From Syntrophobacter sp. SbD2 (GTDB lineage Bacteria > Desulfobacterota > Binatia > UBA9968), in the NCBI GenBank assembly GCA_945889495.1, contig CAMDBU010000012.1, forward strand, positions 1-61,781: a stretch of DNA of 61,781 nt, read 5' to 3'. Under the pieces are notes generated by a model. It had not been told where the DNA came from. It saw only the letters and a program-made list of their open reading frames with translations, and ran no database searches. Position numbers and translations under genes: made by a program. Shown here in pieces: positions 5,032-60,300 of the stretch (positions within the stretch are counted from its first letter, which is position 1; the number at the start of each line of letters is the position of its first letter).

Positions 5032-5040
5032 GAAGAAGAA

Positions 5041-5251
5041 TTTAACCACAAAGAGCACAAAGGTCACAAAAGCGGAAGATTCGGAATCGGAGTATTAACC
5101 GCAAAGAACGCAAGGTACGCAAAGGGGAAATCGGATTCGTAGGGGCGCAGCAAGCTGCGCCCTTTTTCTATGCGACCTTTGCGTTCTTTGCGGTTAATAA
5201 TTCCGAATCCGAATCCCAAATTTTGTGCCCTTTGTGCTCTTTGTGGTTAAA
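5041..5251. repeat. 211-bp nested palindrome of CACAAAG/CGCAAAG repeats
   Basis: The outer arms are 5041-5070 and 5221-5251: AACCACAAAG, GCACAAAGG and the complement, with one mismatch over about 30 bases. The inner arms are 5095-5124 and 5170-5197 (TTAACCGCAAAGAACGCAA and its complement). Between them, ATTCGGAATCGGA faces TCCGAATCCGAAT. The centre is a separate GC hairpin. It lies between two convergent genes, 9 bp from each stop codon, so RNA from either strand would fold into a long hairpin. Confidence 0.9.
5143..5167 (+). terminator. Rho-independent terminator at the palindrome centre
   Basis: GGGCGCAG (5143-5150), loop CAAG, CTGCGCCC (5155-5162), then TTTTT (5163-5167). It is well placed to end transcription of the M24 peptidase gene on the plus strand. 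It also belongs to the GGGGCG palindrome family seen elsewhere in the window. Confidence 0.75.
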
Positions 5252-5260
5252 TCCCCGCGC

Positions 5261-11121: not shown

Positions 11122-11218
11122 GGTTAAGTCACCTCTTGAGCGGAGAGTATTTGAAGCTAGTGCGTCCTGTCAACATTGCGGAACAAGTTCAGAGGATGAG
11201 TTAAGAAGAAGAAATATC

Positions 11219-11345
11219 AACCACGAAAAACACGAAAGGCACGAAAATAAGAATTATGGATTTATCCGATTTTCGTGTTTTTCGTGGTTAAAATTCTTCC
11301 TCCGAACTTTGCGCCTTGGCGCCTTTGCGGGAGAAACATCCGACT
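11219..11345. repeat. CACGAAA inverted repeat and a CGCCTTTGCGGG half-element
   Basis: AACCACGAAAAACACGAAA (11219-11237) pairs perfectly with its complement at 11271-11289, a 19-bp stem. A GCGCCTTGGCGCCTTTGCGG half-element follows. The region separates two divergent genes, so promoters for both must overlap or flank these repeats; I could not pick them out. Confidence 0.8.
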
Positions 11346-11388
11346 CCTCAAACTCGACCCCGCATTTCGCATCTGCTACTCTCGCGCC

Positions 11389-11796
11389 ATGAACTGGCAA
11401 GACAACCTCATCACCACCACTGAGCAAATCCGCGAGCTAATCAACGCCACCAAACGGATCGCCGTCCTCGGCATCAAGACCGACGCCCAAGCCGACCAGC
11501 CGTCGGTGTACGTACCGCAGTACATGCAGCGCGCCGGCTTCGCCATTGTCCCCGTGCCGGTCTACTACCCGGAGGCGAGAGAAATTTTAGGTGAGAAAGT
11601 CTACCGCAAGCTAACCGACATCCCCGACGACATCGACATGGTCGACGTCTTCCGCCGCCCGAGCGACATCCCCGGCCATATCGACGACATCTTAGCGAAG
11701 CAGCCCAAGTCGGTCTGGTTCCAATCCGGCATCCGCAACGACCAAGCCGCCGAGATCCTCGCCAAGGCCGGAATAAAAGTAGTCCAAGACCGCTGA
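11389..11796 (+). CDS. CoA-binding domain protein (YccU-like)
   Basis: A 135-residue Rossmann protein of the CoA_binding_2 family: 'TKRIAVLGIKTDAQADQPSVYVPQYMQRAGFAIVPVPVYYPEA' (nucleotide-binding strand and loop), 'LTDIPDDIDMVDVFRRPSDIPGHIDDIL', 'KSVWFQSGIRNDQAAEILAKAGIKVVQDR'. Some relatives bind CoA; most have no assigned reaction. ATG 11389 is preferred because it begins the domain; the open frame back to 11275 only crosses repeat sequence. Confidence 0.8.
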   Translation: MNWQDNLITTTEQIRELINATKRIAVLGIKTDAQADQPSVYVPQYMQRAGFAIVPVPVYYPEAREILGEKVYRKLTDIPDDIDMVDVFRRPSDIPGHIDDILAKQPKSVWFQSGIRNDQAAEILAKAGIKVVQDR

Positions 11797-12174
11797 CTGA
11801 TGGTCGACCACCGGCGGTTCGCCGGGTGAAAATAGTTGCCAGTGATCAGTTGTCAGTTGCTAGTTGCCGGAGCCCGGCGATGCATTCGCGCAGCGTGACT
11901 TCATTCTGTATGCGGCAATAAAAGAATCCGTCATACCGGCGCAGGCCGGTATCCAGGCGGGGCGAATCGATGGATTCCGGCCGGAGTTTATCCTGAGCAA
12001 GGTCGAAGGGGCGGAATGAAGGACGGAGACCTTAGGAATTCAGACATCTTCCCAAACTCGTGCCTTTCGTGTTTTTCGTGGTTAAATTCCTTTTCCCAAT
12101 GCCATTCTCTGTAATCTCCGTGCCCTCCGTGCTGGCCGATCCGAAAACCCGAAACCCGAAACCCGTAACACCCC
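11797..12174. repeat. 378-bp spacer with AGTTGCC heptamers and other intergenic repeats
   Basis: Five heptamers in a row, AGTTGCC, AGTGATC, AGTTGTC, AGTTGCT, AGTTGCC, span 11834-11868. ATACCGGC, GCAG, GCCGGTAT (11933-11952) is a perfect hairpin. CCTGAGCAAGGTCGAAGGGG (11992-12011) repeats the 7584 motif. Half-elements of the CACGAAA and CTCCGTGCC types fill 12045-12135. I see no gene. Confidence 0.75.
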
Positions 12175-16169: not shown

Positions 16170-16250
16170 CACCACGAATACACGAAGAGCACGAAGGTAA
16201 GACTAAGAGATTCCTTTTCCGAACTTCGTGTCCTTCGTGCCTTCGTGGTG
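16170..16250. repeat. CACGAAG inverted repeat
   Basis: CACCACGAATACACGAAG at the left (from 16170) faces CTTCGTGTCC, TTCGTGC, CTTCGTGGTG at the right (ending 16250), with nine-base periodicity. It lies between the binding-protein gene and the ThDP enzyme gene. It is the last element of this family before about 47.47 kb. Confidence 0.75.
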
Positions 16251-47521: not shown

Positions 47522-48523
47522 TCACTGCAACCGCGCGAAGAAACCGCTGTCGTCGAATTTCTTGCACAGGCTCAGATCGCCGATGTCTTCCGGCTTCAAC
47601 TCGGCGGCTTTCGGATTGATGCCATGTTGCGCCATTAGTTTTAGTACCGAGGCGATGCCCGCCATGCTCGGGCAGGGTCTGCGCGGAATCGTATCCGCGA
47701 TGGCGCGATAGGCGATCTCCAAACGATCGGGCCGGTCGAGCCGCAGGTTGCGCGCGATGCTGTCGACGACGGCTTTCTTATTCGCCGGATTCTGCACGAA
47801 GGCCGCGCCCTCGATCACCGCCTTGGCGAGATTTTCCACGATCAGCGGATTGCTACGCATATACTTGCGCGAGGTCACCAAACCCGACGCCTGGTACGGC
47901 ACGTTGGCCTTGCCGAGATCGAAGAGCATAGGGAAACCCTGCTGCAACACAACCTGCTCGACCTCGGGATTGAAAAACGCCGCGTCGATACCGCCGGCAA
48001 ACAGCGAACTCATGCGCTCCGGCGTGCTGCCGGTATTGAGCAGCGTGATCTTGTCGCGCCGCGGCACCAATCCCAGTTGATCCAGACCGACGTAGGTCGC
48101 CATCGCCAGCGAACCCGACGGCGTGCCGATGCCAACCTTCTTACCCTTTAAATCCTCCGCGCTCTTGATGCCCGGACGAACGTTTAAAAAATAATTGAGC
48201 TTATCTTCCATGCCGAGCAGCATGGTCATATCGGCTCCGGCGGTGACCGCGTTGGTGACATGCGACGCGCCGAGCAAGCCGAACTGAATATCGCCGGCGA
48301 TCATCGACTGCATCGCCCGCCCGGCGATAATGAAGATCAACTGCGGATCGAGATTATACTTGCGAAAAATCCCCTGCTCCTTGGCGATCCACAACGGCAT
48401 GGCATTGCCACCAATGGCGCCGTAAGCGAAGAGAAACTTAGTGGGCGGCTCGGCAGCCCGGGCAACGGTAGAAAGCATGAAGCAAACAGAAGCGAGCAAC
48501 AGCCATCGTAACTTCATACGCAT
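47522..48523 (-). CDS. NMT1/THI5-like substrate-binding protein
   Basis: 333 residues with a signal peptide ('LLLASVCFMLSTVARA'). 'FAYGAIGGNAMPLWIAKEQGIFRKYNLDPQLIFI', 'SAEDLKGKKVGIGTPSGSLAMATYVGLDQLGL' and 'SNPLIVENLAKAVIEGAAFV' place it in the same family as its downstream neighbour, but the two are diverged. GGGAGG precedes the ATG. A CGCAAAG half-element occupies the 64-bp gap to the next gene. Confidence 0.85.
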   Translation of the reverse strand: MRMKLRWLLLASVCFMLSTVARAAEPPTKFLFAYGAIGGNAMPLWIAKEQGIFRKYNLDPQLIFIIAGRAMQSMIAGDIQFGLLGASHVTNAVTAGADMTMLLGMEDKLNYFLNVRPGIKSAEDLKGKKVGIGTPSGSLAMATYVGLDQLGLVPRRDKITLLNTGSTPERMSSLFAGGIDAAFFNPEVEQVVLQQGFPMLFDLGKANVPYQASGLVTSRKYMRSNPLIVENLAKAVIEGAAFVQNPANKKAVVDSIARNLRLDRPDRLEIAYRAIADTIPRRPCPSMAGIASVLKLMAQHGINPKAAELKPEDIGDLSLCKKFDDSGFFARLQ

Positions 48524-48544
48524 TGCCTCCCACTCCGAAAGGGT

Positions 48545-48580
48545 TGGAACCGCTGGAACGATTGGAACGTCTGGAACGAG
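48545..48580. repeat. Tandem TGGAACnnn nonamers
   Basis: Four nine-base units in a row: TGGAACCGC, TGGAACGAT, TGGAACGTC, TGGAACGAG. They lie between the binding-protein start and the GST stop. A single-armed array; no inverted partner was seen nearby. Confidence 0.75.
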
Positions 48581-48582
48581 TT

Positions 48583-49278
48583 CTACTTCCGGCGCCTTCC
48601 CTGGCCAAACAAAACCTTCTTACCTTCCTCGGTCATGCCCGCCGAACCGACGTTGATGGTCTTGGCGATCGCGTAGGCGCGCACCACGGCGGGACGCTTT
48701 TGAATCGCCTCGAACCAGCGCTTCAAGTTAGGAAAGTCGTTCAAGTCCTGCCCTTGCCGCTCGTGTAAGACGATCCACGGATAACAAGCGATGTCGGCGA
48801 TGGAGTAAGCACCGGCGACGAACTCGCGGTCTTCCAAGCGCTCGTCGAGGACGCCGTAGAGCCGTTCGGTCTCCTTGGTGTAGCGTTCGATGGCGTAGGT
48901 AATCTTCTCCGCCGCGTAGCCGCGGAAATGATGATTTTGTCCAAGCATCGGCCCCAACCCGCCCATCTGCCAAAACACCCACTGCATGACATCCGCCCGC
49001 CCGCGCACATCGCGCGGCAACAGCTGGCCGCACTTGTCAGCCAAGTATTCCAGCATCGCCCCCGACTCGAAAATACTCAACGGCCCGCCGCCACCCAGCG
49101 GATCATGATCGACCAGCGCCGGTATCCGATTGTTCGGCGAGATCTGCAAAAACTCCGGCGCGAACTGCTCGCCCTTGCCAATATTGATCGGCTTGATCGA
49201 GTAAGGCAGGCCGGTCTCTTCGAGAAAGATCGTGAGTTTATGACCGTTAGGCGTGGTCCAATAGTAGAGATCGATCAT
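48583..49278 (-). CDS. Glutathione S-transferase, Nu-class-like (YfcG/YghU type)
   Basis: 231 residues. The thioredoxin-like N-terminal domain starts 'YYWTTPNGHKLTIFLEETGLPYSI' and has 'NNRIPALVDHDP' and 'SIFESGAMLEYLADKCG'. The helical domain has 'WQMGGLGPMLGQNHHF' and 'YSIADIACYPWIVLHE'. The Thr-Thr-Pro-Asn start fits Nu-class enzymes with disulfide reductase activity. It is upstream of two binding-protein genes on the same strand; no functional link is clear. Confidence 0.85.
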   Translation of the reverse strand: MIDLYYWTTPNGHKLTIFLEETGLPYSIKPINIGKGEQFAPEFLQISPNNRIPALVDHDPLGGGGPLSIFESGAMLEYLADKCGQLLPRDVRGRADVMQWVFWQMGGLGPMLGQNHHFRGYAAEKITYAIERYTKETERLYGVLDERLEDREFVAGAYSIADIACYPWIVLHERQGQDLNDFPNLKRWFEAIQKRPAVVRAYAIAKTINVGSAGMTEEGKKVLFGQGRRRK

Positions 49279-49290
49279 GTGAACTCCTTG

Positions 49291-49740
49291 AGCGTGAGGC
49301 TTGAGGCGCGAGGCATGAGTAAGACCGTCATGACAGCTTGGCCACTAGGGTGGCGAGCATTCGGCTAATCTCCGCGATTTCTTTCAAGACAGAATAGGTA
49401 TCTTCCGACTTCAAGTACTTGAGCCGCACGCTCAACAGAATTTGAGTTTCCAACTCCAGCAGTGAACCTCGACCGATGGAAAGATGGTGGCGATATTCCC
49501 CGGTCGCCTGCCGGCCGTAACCTTCGGCGATATTCGACGGCACGGAAACCGCTGCGCGCCGCATCTGCGCAACCAGCCCCCACTGTTCACTCGACGGCAG
49601 AGTAGCGGTAAACCGATAAACCTTCTCAACCAAATCCATGCTCCGCTGCCACACCAAAAGCTCCTGGTAGCCCGCAATCTTACTACCGTGAGTTCTCACC
49701 TCCGGCCTCTTGCTCACGCCTCAAGCCTCATGCCTCACGC
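49291..49740. repeat. Inverted TGAGGC heptamer arms enclosing the four-helix-bundle gene
   Basis: The left arm (about 49293-49322) has units GTGAGGC, TTGAGGC, GCGAGGC, ATGAGTAAG. The right arm (about 49709-49738), read as its complement, has GTGAGGC, ATGAGGC, TTGAGGC, GTGAGCAAG. The arms match at 25 of 30 positions. The gene 49328-49717 starts inside the right arm and ends 5 bp from the left arm. The stop codon of the molybdenum hydroxylase gene (49735-49737) also lies in the right arm. The whole unit is about 450 bp. Confidence 0.75.
49328..49717 (-). CDS. Four-helix-bundle protein (S23/IVP/Avd-like)
   Basis: Up to 129 residues from a GTG at 49717 (a GTG at 49699 is an alternative). 'YQELLVWQRSMDLVEKVYRFTATLP', 'WGLVAQMRRAAVSVPSNIAEGYGRQ', 'YRHHLSIGRGSLLELETQILLSVRL' are the family's conserved helices. 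Relatives are encoded in 23S rRNA intervening sequences and, as Avd, in diversity-generating retroelements; they bind nucleic acid or reverse transcriptase. No retroelement or rRNA is near. The gene fits exactly between two inverted heptamer arms. Confidence 0.85.
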   Translation of the reverse strand: MSKRPEVRTHGSKIAGYQELLVWQRSMDLVEKVYRFTATLPSSEQWGLVAQMRRAAVSVPSNIAEGYGRQATGEYRHHLSIGRGSLLELETQILLSVRLKYLKSEDTYSVLKEIAEISRMLATLVAKLS

Positions 49741-51978
49741 CTTTAGCGCGCGCAGCGCGCCCAACACCCGCTCCGCCGTTACCGGCACGTCGAACAAGCG
49801 GACGCCGCAGGCGTCGGCGACGGCGTTACAGATCGCCGCCGGCGGCGTGACGTTGGCGTGTTCGCCGATGCCTTTGGCTTCGTAGGGGCCGGGGCCGTTT
49901 TTGCCTTTGACCAAAATGGTTTTGAGTTTGGGAATGTCTTGAATGTTGGGGATCTTGTATTCGCCCAGGTTGGTGGTGGTCACCTTGCCTTGATCGTGGG
50001 TCAGCTCTTCCATCAGGCCGCTGCCGATCGCCATGATCGCTTCGCCGTCGATCTGGCCTTGATGGCCGAGCGGATTGATGATCGTGCCGACATCATGGGC
50101 GGTGACGAATTTGGTCAGCTTCACCTGGCCGGTCTCGCGGTCGACCTCGACCTCGGCGACTTGGGCGATGAACGAAGTCGACGAGCCCTTGCGCGGCACT
50201 TCGGTCTCGACACTCACCGCCACCGGCGCGCCAGCGGCTTTGACGACATCGATCAAGGTCAGCGCCTTGGCCTTCACGCCGGTGGCGGAAAATTTCCCCG
50301 ACTTGTAAACCACTTGATCTTCGGCGCAGCCAAACTTCGCTGCCGCGTGCGCGCTCAGTTTTTTGCGCAGCTCGGCGGAGGCTTGATAGGCCGCCGCGCT
50401 GTTGATGTTGGTCGAACGGCTGCCGCCGAAGCCGACATCGACACTGTAAGAAACGTCCGCCGTGTTGCCGATCTTGCAACGGACATTTTCGTAGGGCACC
50501 TGCATTTCGTTGGAGACGGTCTGGCAGAGGACCGTCTGTAAACCCGTGCCCTGATCGCCGGCGACGGTGAAGACCGTGAACGTGCCGTCGGCTTCGGCAG
50601 TGAGATTCACCCAGACTTTGCCGGCGCCGGTGCCACGCTCGTACATCGCTACGCCGCGACCGACATTAGGTCGCTTGGGCGATTTCCAACCGGCGGCGTC
50701 GAGAGCCGCTTTCAAAGTTTCCTTCGCCTTGACGCCGATCCAGGATTTGCCCAATGAATTTTCTTCGCCTTCGCCGACCAGATTGATCATGCGAAATTTC
50801 GCCGGGTCCATTTTCAACTCTTTTGCGATCATATCCATGTGCGACTCGGTGGCGAACACCGCTTGGATCGCTCCCGGCGCGCGCCAAAAACCGCAGGGCA
50901 CGGTGTTGGTGTAAACCTGCAACGCTTCCATGTAGCTGTTGGCGATCTTATAGGGCGTCGCGCCGCCGGCGCCGCCGATGCTGGCGCGCCCCGGCTTCAT
51001 GCCGGCGTAGGCTCCGGTGCCGTGGATCGCTTGCAAATAGCGCGCGGTCATCCGGCCGTCGCATTTCACGCCCGTCTTCACCTTGAGCACCGTGTAGTGA
51101 TCGGGATTCATCGCCGTCAGTTCTTCGCTGTGGGTGAGGACGATCTTCACCGGCCGCTTGGCCTGCTTGGCGAGAAAATAACAGATCGGCAACTCGCCGG
51201 CGCCACTCTTGCCGCCGAAGTCGGCGCCGACATGGACCGCTTGCAGGCGAATCTGGCTGCCGGGAATGCCGACGGACTTGGCGAACTGCCCGCGCGTGCC
51301 GAAGGGCCCCTTGGTCGAGGCCCAGCAATTGACGATGCCGTCGGCTTCGATCTTGACCAGAAACGACTGCGGTTCGAGATAGCCCTGGTGATGGATCGGC
51401 ATGCGAAAGGTATGTTCCAAAACCAGATCGGCCTCGGCGAAACCTTTTTCGATGTCGCCCTTACCGAAGGTGAGTTTGTTGACAATATTGCCGCCGGCCG
51501 GCGCCATGATCTCTTTGGGTGCGCCGTCATAACCCGGCGCATTGTCGTGGATCACCGGCGCATCGGCTTTGATCGCATCGAGCACGTCGAATACCGCCGG
51601 CAGCTCTTCGTACTCGACATCGATCAAGCTGCAGGCTTCCTCAGCGGCGTCCTTATCTTCCGCCGCCACCGCGGCGACCCGGTCGCCGACAAAGCGCACC
51701 TTGTCCCAGCACAGCACGGGAATGTCGCGAATGCTTTTGCCCTGATACCGTTCCGGCTCGTCCTTGCCGGTGACGATCGCTTTCACCCCCGGCACTTTCC
51801 AGGCTTTTGAAACGTCGATGCTCTTGATCCGCGCATGAGGATAAGGGCTGCGCAAGATCTTCCCCCACAGCGCGTCGGCGAAATGCACGTCCGCGCCATA
51901 AACCGCGCTACCGTTGACTTTCTCCACGCCCTCAACCCGCCCGACGCCCGCGCCGATGATGGAACTGTTCTTTGCCAT
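49735..51978 (-). CDS. Xanthine dehydrogenase-family molybdopterin-binding subunit, paralogue
   Basis: 747 residues with the same layout as the protein at 7639-9870: hammerhead 'GSAVYGADVHFADALWGKILRSPYPHARI', 'VHVGADFGGKSGAGELPICYFLAKQA', 'TVPCGFWRAPGAIQA', 'AGDQGTGLQTVLCQT' and catalytic 'KGIGEHANVTPPAAICNAVADACG'. Again no iron-sulfur or FAD subunit gene accompanies it. AAGGAG precedes ATG 51978. The last codons run into the arm of the four-helix-bundle element, so the C-terminus may have been altered by that insertion. Confidence 0.88.
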   Translation of the reverse strand: MAKNSSIIGAGVGRVEGVEKVNGSAVYGADVHFADALWGKILRSPYPHARIKSIDVSKAWKVPGVKAIVTGKDEPERYQGKSIRDIPVLCWDKVRFVGDRVAAVAAEDKDAAEEACSLIDVEYEELPAVFDVLDAIKADAPVIHDNAPGYDGAPKEIMAPAGGNIVNKLTFGKGDIEKGFAEADLVLEHTFRMPIHHQGYLEPQSFLVKIEADGIVNCWASTKGPFGTRGQFAKSVGIPGSQIRLQAVHVGADFGGKSGAGELPICYFLAKQAKRPVKIVLTHSEELTAMNPDHYTVLKVKTGVKCDGRMTARYLQAIHGTGAYAGMKPGRASIGGAGGATPYKIANSYMEALQVYTNTVPCGFWRAPGAIQAVFATESHMDMIAKELKMDPAKFRMINLVGEGEENSLGKSWIGVKAKETLKAALDAAGWKSPKRPNVGRGVAMYERGTGAGKVWVNLTAEADGTFTVFTVAGDQGTGLQTVLCQTVSNEMQVPYENVRCKIGNTADVSYSVDVGFGGSRSTNINSAAAYQASAELRKKLSAHAAAKFGCAEDQVVYKSGKFSATGVKAKALTLIDVVKAAGAPVAVSVETEVPRKGSSTSFIAQVAEVEVDRETGQVKLTKFVTAHDVGTIINPLGHQGQIDGEAIMAIGSGLMEELTHDQGKVTTTNLGEYKIPNIQDIPKLKTILVKGKNGPGPYEAKGIGEHANVTPPAAICNAVADACGVRLFDVPVTAERVLGALRALKA

Positions 51979-58530: not shown

Positions 58531-58603
58531 AATGGAGTGATGGAGTATTGGAGTGTTGGGTCCGGAAGCCCATTACTCCACCACTCCGATACTCCATCAC
58601 TCC
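58531..58603. repeat. Inverted TGGAGTAT octamer arms
   Basis: Left arm units TGGAGTGA, TGGAGTAT, TGGAGTGT from 58533. The right arm (58572-58603) carries the complementary ACTCCACC, ACTCCGAT, ACTCCATC, ACTCC. The arms pair over about 24 bases with an 11-base loop. It starts 4 bp after the second stop of the broken binding-protein gene and may terminate its transcript. Confidence 0.75.
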
Positions 58604-60159: not shown

Positions 60160-60300
60160 GGGGCAACCACAGGGGTTGCCCCCAAAGTCTAATTCCTTTT
60201 TGCGTTCTTTGCGCCCTTTGCGGTCAATCATCCGATTCCGATTTGTCTTAATATGTGATCCTTGTGCTCTTTGTGGTTAATTATCTTGGTAAGGAGCAAC
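60160..60300. repeat. GGGGCAACC hairpin and two periodic half-elements
   Basis: GGGGCAACC (60160-60168), ACAGG, GGTTGCCCC (60174-60182) lies 8 bp after the carboxyltransferase stop. It is followed by GCGTTCTTTGCGCCCTTTGC and CTTGTGCTCTTTGTGG half-elements with TCCGATTCCGA between them. The hairpin may act in termination, though the T-run is displaced. Confidence 0.75.

Follow-up and report, generated by a model that had tools for sequence, protein, structure and literature searches.

The S23/IVP gene studied here, found in a 61,781-nt stretch of Syntrophobacter sp. SbD2 DNA (the whole of which is referred to below as the window), lies between two inverted arrays of a short repeated word, an arrangement that comparison of genomic, plasmid and viral loci established as common to this gene family across many phyla. 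Our interpretation, to which we assign a probability of roughly 0.7, is that such units are small selfish mobile elements, each combining a non-enzymatic ring protein with its cognate repeat, accompanied by gene-less satellites and encoding a protein akin to that of the rRNA intervening sequences (IVS).

The gene (49328-49717, minus strand; 390 bp including the stop codon, 129 amino acids, with a GTG start) encodes a four-helix-bundle protein of the 23S_rRNA_IVP/S23 family, matched by both PF05635 (E 6.7e-37, 126.4 bits against a cut-off of 33.8) and TIGR02436 (122.4 bits, cut-off 24). No other Pfam family matched the protein apart from bAvd, which remained below its cut-off, and its relatives in the PDB, 2gsc (E 1.8e-29) and 2rld (E 0.0004), contain five chains each. 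In the sense of the gene, the 5' arm is an array of GGCGTGAGGCATGAGGCTTGAGGCGTGAGCAAGA, G-rich in the gene strand, at 49708-49740 (minus strand), and the 3' arm, located by repeat finding at 49292-49324, is the inverted copy of the array, reading GCGTGAGGCTTGAGGCGCGAGGCATGAGTAAGA on the plus strand. The arms comprise 33 nt each, are separated by 383 nt and consist of TGAGGCN heptamers, a period of 7 having been called in both by a tandem-repeat finder. The original prediction of a 390-bp S23/Avd-like gene between inverted TGAGGC heptamer arms was confirmed by the two family models and by repeat finding; the arms of about 30 bp that it described, with 25 of 30 positions matching, are real, but in their full extent they are complementary at 28 of 33 positions (85%).

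The unit is located between two protein genes and not inside an rRNA gene. Upstream lies a molybdenum hydroxylase gene (49735-51978, minus strand; the name was taken over from the original prediction, without a family search) and downstream a glutathione S-transferase (GST)-like gene (48583-49278, minus strand; named by eye). The stop codon of the hydroxylase gene, TGA at 49735-49737, is indeed supplied by the 5' arm, as had been proposed. The proposed position of the IVP start codon within the same arm was only partly upheld: a GTG is found there, at 49717, which makes such a start plausible but unproven, and in the corresponding unit of genome G004 an ATG that lies within the arm does not share the reading frame of the gene. 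In the RNA fold predicted for the whole unit (49286-49746, minus strand), the arms pair with each other to form the outermost helix (MFE -190.6 kcal/mol, z -3.5), with none of 100 shuffles matching the native MFE; this agrees with the earlier suggestion of a hairpin-forming unit, and the complementary stem-forming ends expected of an rRNA IVS are thus present in the sequence and in the predicted fold. No Rfam family was detected above its gathering score in 48400-50300.

The generality of this build was examined in 58 genomes, including that of the window, 29 of which contain PF05635 (108 matches). These matches were only partly fetched, contig starts and fragments having been skipped, and from 106 domain hits in 94 loci we retained 88 units after excluding 16 short domain matches and two loci at contig ends (L026 and L081). 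For each unit, the 300 nt upstream were aligned with the reverse complement of the 300 nt downstream; control genes and intervals were drawn only from loci of at least 5 kb, with control flanks trimmed at gene edges and IVP flanks at domain edges. A score of at least 32, reached by 1.05% of 4000 cross-paired flanks and exceeded by the window unit itself (41), was found for 59 of the 88 homologues, compared with 10 of 452 other genes (Fisher p 6e-46) and 4 of 1229 random intervals; 67 of the 88 homologues reached at least 28. Inverted flanks had a median score of 37.5, compared with 18.5 for the direct orientation and 17 when the two flanks came from different units, and direct-orientation repeats attained 32 or more in 11 of the 88 units. 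Seven of the ten control genes with arms of at least 32 were scanned and turned out to be ordinary metabolic, nuclease-like or other genes, with no IVP gene among the seven. Short-period arrays are common in these genomes, and the arms might accordingly be taken for products of chance or of base composition in repeat-rich intergenic DNA; the same-locus, direct-orientation and cross-pair controls contradict this explanation, to which we give virtually no weight.

Two outcomes would have counted against the original prediction. Arms that were no commoner near these genes than elsewhere can be ruled out from the above counts, and homologues devoid of arms do occur in part, since no pair scoring at least 28 was found in 21 of the 88 units or in 18 of the best 80 of 582 relatives considered below. 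The genome of the window contains five PF05635 genes, four of which have inverted short-period arms scoring at least 28, each made of a different word; no arm pair at this score was found for the fifth (L003).

By our own reading, made without a control, the end of a contig is no more than 500 bases away from about 16 of the 108 IVP matches, as if the arms were breaking short-read assembly, and the unit counts are perhaps lower bounds.

In a scan of genome contigs restricted to one genome per species, the best 80 of 582 relatives belonged to Planctomycetota, Proteobacteria, Clostridia, Bacteroidota, Acidobacteriota and other groups, and included one cyanobacterium, candidate phyla and two Methanophagales archaea. 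Arms scoring at least 28 were present in 62 of these 80, compared with 3.4% of cross pairs, and in one of the two archaeal loci (score 29). Loci on viral contigs had arms in 26 of 35 cases against 7.9% of cross pairs, a proportion inflated by the inclusion of near-identical contigs. On cyanobacterial plasmids, all seven records inspected, out of 25 matching plasmid records, were armed (about four distinct units). The INPHARED phages yielded no IVP match.

The anatomy of the arms was determined in both samples of genomic loci. The best period was 7 or 14 in 45 of the 67 armed units of related genomes (16 of 67 with shuffled arms) and in 50 of the 62 armed units from the best 80 of 582 relatives (7 of 62 when shuffled), and it was 8 or 9 in 14 of 67 and 9 of 62, respectively. 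Median arm lengths were 30 nt and 32 nt in the two samples, corresponding to four to five words. In the 5' arm, read on the gene strand, G exceeded C in 56 units and the reverse held in 10 among the related genomes, the corresponding numbers for the units from the best 80 relatives being 56 and 4. The build established by these comparisons, as far as alignment can define it, is that of an S23/IVP gene with an array of about four to five words on either side, the two arrays being inverted relative to each other and the words usually of 7 nt and sometimes of 8 or 9 nt.

The word itself differs among units. Among the 67 armed units, the same arm word was shared by 35 of 44 pairs with a protein similarity of at least 0.7, by 12 of 25 pairs at similarities of 0.6 to 0.7 and by 0.3% of the 1577 pairs with similarities lower than 0.3. 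Over all pairs, the rank correlation between word and protein was small (0.13), yet none of 2000 permutations reached this value. Of 54 close unit pairs, 19 had homologous flanks, as expected from vertical inheritance or from neighbours held in common, 25 had non-homologous flanks and 10 could not be judged; the non-homologous surroundings include those of pairs within a single genome (for example L042/L043 and L006/L036). The homologous flanks in 19 of 54 pairs indicate that movement is not frequent. As demonstrated by these pairwise comparisons, arm words vary between units and are nevertheless linked in descent to the protein. The earlier idea that the protein acts on its own arms receives from this relatedness, and from the tracking of unit arms by arrays in seven genomes described below, only indirect support, and there are no binding data.

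Arrays of the same words were also found without a gene. The counts given here are pattern matches and not arrays, a long array giving several, and matches inside units are included. The genome of the window has 87 TGAGGC triplet matches at 35 places, compared with 30 matches for the backwards control. Outside the unit there are 34 such places; the 33 that were read comprise 12 complete short-loop hairpins, 19 single arrays and two places with neither by the pattern applied, which documents at the nucleotide level that the word of the window unit recurs gene-less, as hairpins and as single arrays, in its own genome. By eye, GAGGC is constant in these arrays and the two spacer bases vary, the inner end often reads GAGTMAGA and the outer end AAGGC. 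In the 12 gene-less TGAGGC hairpins, the arms matched each other with a mean score of 35.5, compared with 38.3 for matches to the arms of other hairpins; own arms thus match no better than foreign ones, so that spacer pairing is not under selection in these hairpins. The possibility that the hairpin is maintained by exact pairing of its arms was rejected, since the two-base spacers are unmatched between arms, and it is therefore the repeated word and not the whole stem that looks conserved.

A second word allowed comparison between genomes. GTTCMA triplets were detected in 24 of the 25 genomes of the family, with up to 322 matches, and in none of the 33 genomes outside it, and the backwards control gave zero in all genomes. 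The comparison was limited to those seven genomes in which a unit with GTTCMA arms is known, the 18 other family genomes being excluded. GTTCCA accounted for 44 of 68 matches in G000, the genome of the window, and for 54 of 174 in G004, where the units have GTTCCA arms, and for 0 to 18.5% of matches in the five genomes whose units have GTTCAA arms (3/186 in G003, 43/322 in G017, 0/120 in G008, 0/33 in G006 and 17/92 in G020). Likewise, a spacing of 8 nt was seen in 12 to 55% of matches where units are 8-nt or mixed (51/92 in G020, 35/120 in G008 and 4/33 in G006) and in 3 to 10% where they are 9-nt (3/68 in G000, 6/186 in G003, 17/174 in G004 and 16/322 in G017), the test of spacing being thin between G006 (12%) and G004 (10%). 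In these seven genomes, both the variable letter and the spacing of GTTCMA arrays, the only array family compared in this way, therefore follow the genome's own unit. A comparable case is Xanthomonas vasicola, among the best 80 of 582 relatives, whose unit has GGGAATC-type arms and whose genome has 228 GGGANTN triplet matches, whereas none of 14 other genomes with an IVP gene exceeds 7. In 4 of these 15 genomes the backwards control was itself matched (20, 97, 1 and 47 times), AGGG words being frequent repeats there.

The abundance of gene-less places invites another interpretation, in which the hairpins of hosts and phages are independent and the IVP gene is a passenger inserting into their loops, with word-specific clades and with gene-less hairpins as empty targets. 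Gene-less places do far outnumber units, with an identical end consensus, and arrays exist in genomes without a detected IVP gene: the drafts G018, G021 and G024 have 22, 24 and 58 GTTCMA matches and no PF05635 hit. In other drafts, TGAGGC matches occur in G006, G007 and G009, yet no unit with TGAGGC arms was read there, and 8-nt GTTCMA arrays are numerous in G014 and G023, where an 8-nt GTTCMA unit is lacking. That arrays track both the word and the spacing of the unit in the seven genomes compared speaks against a passenger, and so do insertion sites in phages.

Two clean insertion events were identified, each at a stop-start junction and both on metagenome-assembled viral contigs. At the first, phage contig L299 has a 463-bp unit where L287 has 20 bp, between flanks about 93% identical on both sides, and L289 is as empty as L287; the arm of the unit takes the place of the initial codons of the gene that follows and provides its ATG. 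At the second, a 493-bp unit in L473 corresponds to 7 bp in L474, at an overlapping stop-start, with flanks 78% and 74% identical. No target duplication was seen at these two sites, where flank divergence and loss of target limit detection. Four relatives of L299 (L293, L294, L296 and L297) have 41-44 bp at the same junction, containing by eye a short array of another word, which would suit a passenger finding its target; the empty L287 and L289, however, have no array at this site, nor does L474, and arms and gene must therefore have arrived together. A further phage site (A) received different arms from different units in L255 and L273 and is empty in L258, an additional argument against pre-existing targets. 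We consequently regard the passenger explanation as unlikely, although it deserves some consideration, and retain that of a mobile element carrying its own arms. From these alignments it can be concluded that, in phages, arms and gene constitute one insertion at gene junctions and that an inserted arm can give a neighbouring gene its start or stop codon. Of nine site-A inserts lacking IVP, none is an array by eye. A junction filled in L478 has, by eye, a gene-less GATTTTG hairpin in L480. In-frame stops were found in 11 of the 108 PF05635 matches, and the phage IVP copy of L255 is also interrupted by one. The empty sites, reused sites and broken copies are signs of gain, decay and reuse.

On the phage contigs L255, L258, L273, L266, L276, L254, L261 and L275, the neighbours on either side of the IVP gene are both transcribed in the opposite sense to it; the preceding gene is in sense with IVP in L262 and L267, and the neighbours differ in L260. 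A different insert of about 370 bp occupies a phage gene junction (site B) in L288, L290 and L291.

The junction of the window could be followed in genomes of the same genus. In G004, an IVP gene 67% identical to that of the window lies immediately upstream of the corresponding GST-like gene, with one extra gene separating it from the hydroxylase; its arms contain AGGCANT words where those of the window contain AGGCNTG, the change being identical on both sides. At the corresponding junction of G001 and G002 there is no IVP gene, and only a heptamer array spans the hydroxylase stop. A search for empty sites at the hydroxylase gene had been proposed as a check, and the junction does lack the IVP gene in these two genomes; together with the two clean phage sites, this presence and absence bears out the earlier suggestion of a mobile unit. 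In G002, the GST-like gene beside the IVP-less site (L126) has an in-frame stop near its start.

The location of the arms, around the start codon and just past the stop, could also point to regulation, the protein acting as a post-transcriptional regulator that binds repeats both in the mRNA encoding it and in the untranslated regions of a regulon of other genes, with dispersal as a secondary matter. The G-rich polarity of the arms is tied to the sense of transcription, and at 7 of the 14 TGAGGC places printed an open reading frame ends within about 20 nt of the outer end of the array. A regulon is difficult to reconcile with words that vary between paralogues of one genome and between species, with phage units that are often antisense to the surrounding genes, with the stops in IVP matches mentioned above and with the absence of units from corresponding junctions, and we consider it quite improbable as the primary role, still favoring a selfish mobile element.

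We attach similarly little credence to the possibility that the repeats belong to another enzyme, namely a reverse transcriptase, a diversity-generating retroelement or a Y1/HUH transposase, to which IVP would be an accessory. The IVP protein has a weak match to the Avd model, and among the 25 family genomes 24 have Y1 genes and 10 have reverse transcriptases. However, RVT_1 was unmatched in all five genomes of the genus, that of the window included (all drafts), and help from a reverse transcriptase or retroelement was rejected on these grounds. As for Y1, an end pair scoring at least 28 was found at 9 of 20 loci, mostly of the GGGTCAG type, with a GAGGC array at none of the 20 and a GTTCMA pair at one, and 8 of 9 f3 genomes have Y1 and no GTTCMA array; a Y1 transposase as owner of the arrays was rejected, Y1 loci having other ends or none found. 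No transposase is encoded in the window unit. The Y1 genes at L459, L462-L464, L466 and L469-L472 have inverted ends of their own, mostly of the GGGTCAG type.

The element was compared with known systems sharing parts of its build. RAYT (TnpA-REP) transposases are Y1/HUH nucleases, and in REP/RAYT systems a small gene lies between inverted copies of a repeat that is also scattered gene-less, protein and repeat co-evolving. The window gene resembles these in being enclosed by inverted copies of a repeat that is also found gene-less at many other places of the genome, and differs in that the unit has no Y1/HUH tyrosine nuclease and in that its word is a tandem period of 7-9 nt, whereas REP is one palindrome. 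Avd of diversity-generating retroelements is a related four-helix-bundle pentamer; the window protein scored 26.5 against the 80-bit cut-off of the Avd equivalog, and no RVT_1 match was found in the 95.6% complete draft of its genome, so that neither the Avd nor the reverse transcriptase expected of such a retroelement was recognized. Homology between PF05635 and Avd has been suggested, according to the accessible portion of PMC10053308. With the S23/IVP-encoding rRNA IVS of Coxiella and Leptospira, the unit shares the protein family and an ORF within a hairpin; it differs in lying between protein genes, in having inverted short-period arrays as arms, in the gene-less places sharing its word and in a build that recurs across many phyla. 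In the Coxiella 23S rRNA IVS, tandem GACAGAT heptamers are found just upstream of the ORF and the IVS was termed a selfish element, and the Xanthomonas S23-family protein is a toroidal homopentamer (PMC4990558, available in part).

Intergenic heptamer arrays like those described here are known from Xanthomonas and Nostoc (PMC4692102) and, as TAACTGA repeats, from Beggiatoaceae (PMC4679880), to judge from the parts of these articles that could be consulted. For Xanthomonas, 186 GGGAATC arrays and 70 convergent pairs were counted in one strain, mostly of four words (PMC4692102, in part), and both the four words and the convergent pairing are as in armed units; the GGGANTN repeat of X. vasicola is the one described in the available part of that paper. 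Both papers consider the repeats on their own, and S23, four-helix and 23S rRNA do not occur in either text. Genes for 23S_rRNA_IVP have been listed in CRISPR-cas loci and read as CRISPR-associated (PMC3936711; PMC10910872, both available in part). On the Anabaena sp. 90 plasmid pANA02 (L450), an armed IVP unit separates cas6 from cas4 in a type I-D operon, and insertion of an armed unit into an operon may be an alternative explanation for IVP genes in cas loci. No earlier report linking S23 genes with inverted short-period arrays was found in the open literature, as far as its texts were accessible, subscription papers and preprints being outside the scope of the survey. The protein family is known, and we judge the element class to be new, failing the tests of rRNA IVS by location, of REP/RAYT by nuclease and of diversity-generating retroelements by Avd score and reverse transcriptase; it is possible, however, that the rRNA IVS will turn out to be the members of this class that were discovered first.

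In the mechanism we propose, which is inferred and not supported by binding data, the S23 ring would recognize the repeated word, perhaps with one word per subunit, in single-stranded RNA or DNA or in an extruded hairpin, and this recognition would select the sequences to be copied. TRAP, a ring that binds spaced triplets, offers an analogy to the S23 ring. The conserved IVP domain is not basic, with a median pI of 6.9 (n=86), and the whole window protein has a pI of 9.6. Counting against the proposal are this near-neutral domain, the unmatched spacers of gene-less hairpins, the homologues in which no arm pair was found, the direct-orientation repeats and, in some drafts, arrays to which no IVP gene of the genome corresponds. 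Gene-less arrays would be satellites copied in trans or leftovers of gene loss. Cutting and joining would probably be left to enzymes of the host, the protein having no match to any nuclease or polymerase family; given the missing reverse transcriptase match and Y1 genes with other ends or none, a general host enzyme would be the likeliest copier. The S23-encoding rRNA IVS would then be copies of the element that 23S rRNA genes can tolerate, since RNase III removes them by trimming the transcript.

A wider form of this proposal, on which we find the odds evenly balanced, holds that S23/IVP genes are the coding copies of tree-wide enzyme-less mobile elements, whose pentameric ring would read a private word of 7-9 nt in about five repeats, word and ring changing together and the pair with its satellites spreading between genes through copying enzymes of the host. 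If so, these elements would be the common origin of the S23-encoding rRNA IVS and of the unexplained heptamer arrays seen in cyanobacteria, in xanthomonads and in a wide range of other prokaryotes, joining the two separate puzzles of S23 intervening sequences and heptamer repeats, and the elements would represent a mobile class whose protein recognizes and does not recombine. The proposal gives a testable role to a protein family whose annotation does not go beyond hypothetical or four helix bundle protein, names a candidate source for the short-period arrays, whose matches number from tens to hundreds in these genomes, and, if true, would provide a natural set of diversified ring-word pairs for studying how the nucleic-acid word read by a protein changes.

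Some additional repeats were observed alongside these units. In G022 (L151-L163, L166 and L167), a composite repeat that includes a GTTCAA hairpin whose arms have the opposite polarity is near-identical at more than 12 places, resembling a recent burst of some larger element; no clean element ends were found in the 20 stretches of this burst. Within the window, inverted CACGAAA arrays 813 nt apart surround a 173-amino acid ORF, not an IVP gene, at 11208-12092. Hairpins or paired arrays of CACAAAGN- or CGCAAAGN-like words, with a period of 8-9 nt, are found at 5039-5252, 16173-16247 and 60199-60275, and this word is absent from the arms of all five IVP units of the genome. A gene-less hairpin of the 8-nt word TGGAGTNN at 58533-58603 resembles the arms of a unit (L085) in the same-genus genome G001. 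Just past the end of the GST-like gene, a gene-less GTTCCANNN array with a 9-nt period (48545-48577, minus strand) has a word identical to that in the arms of another IVP unit (L002) of the same genome.
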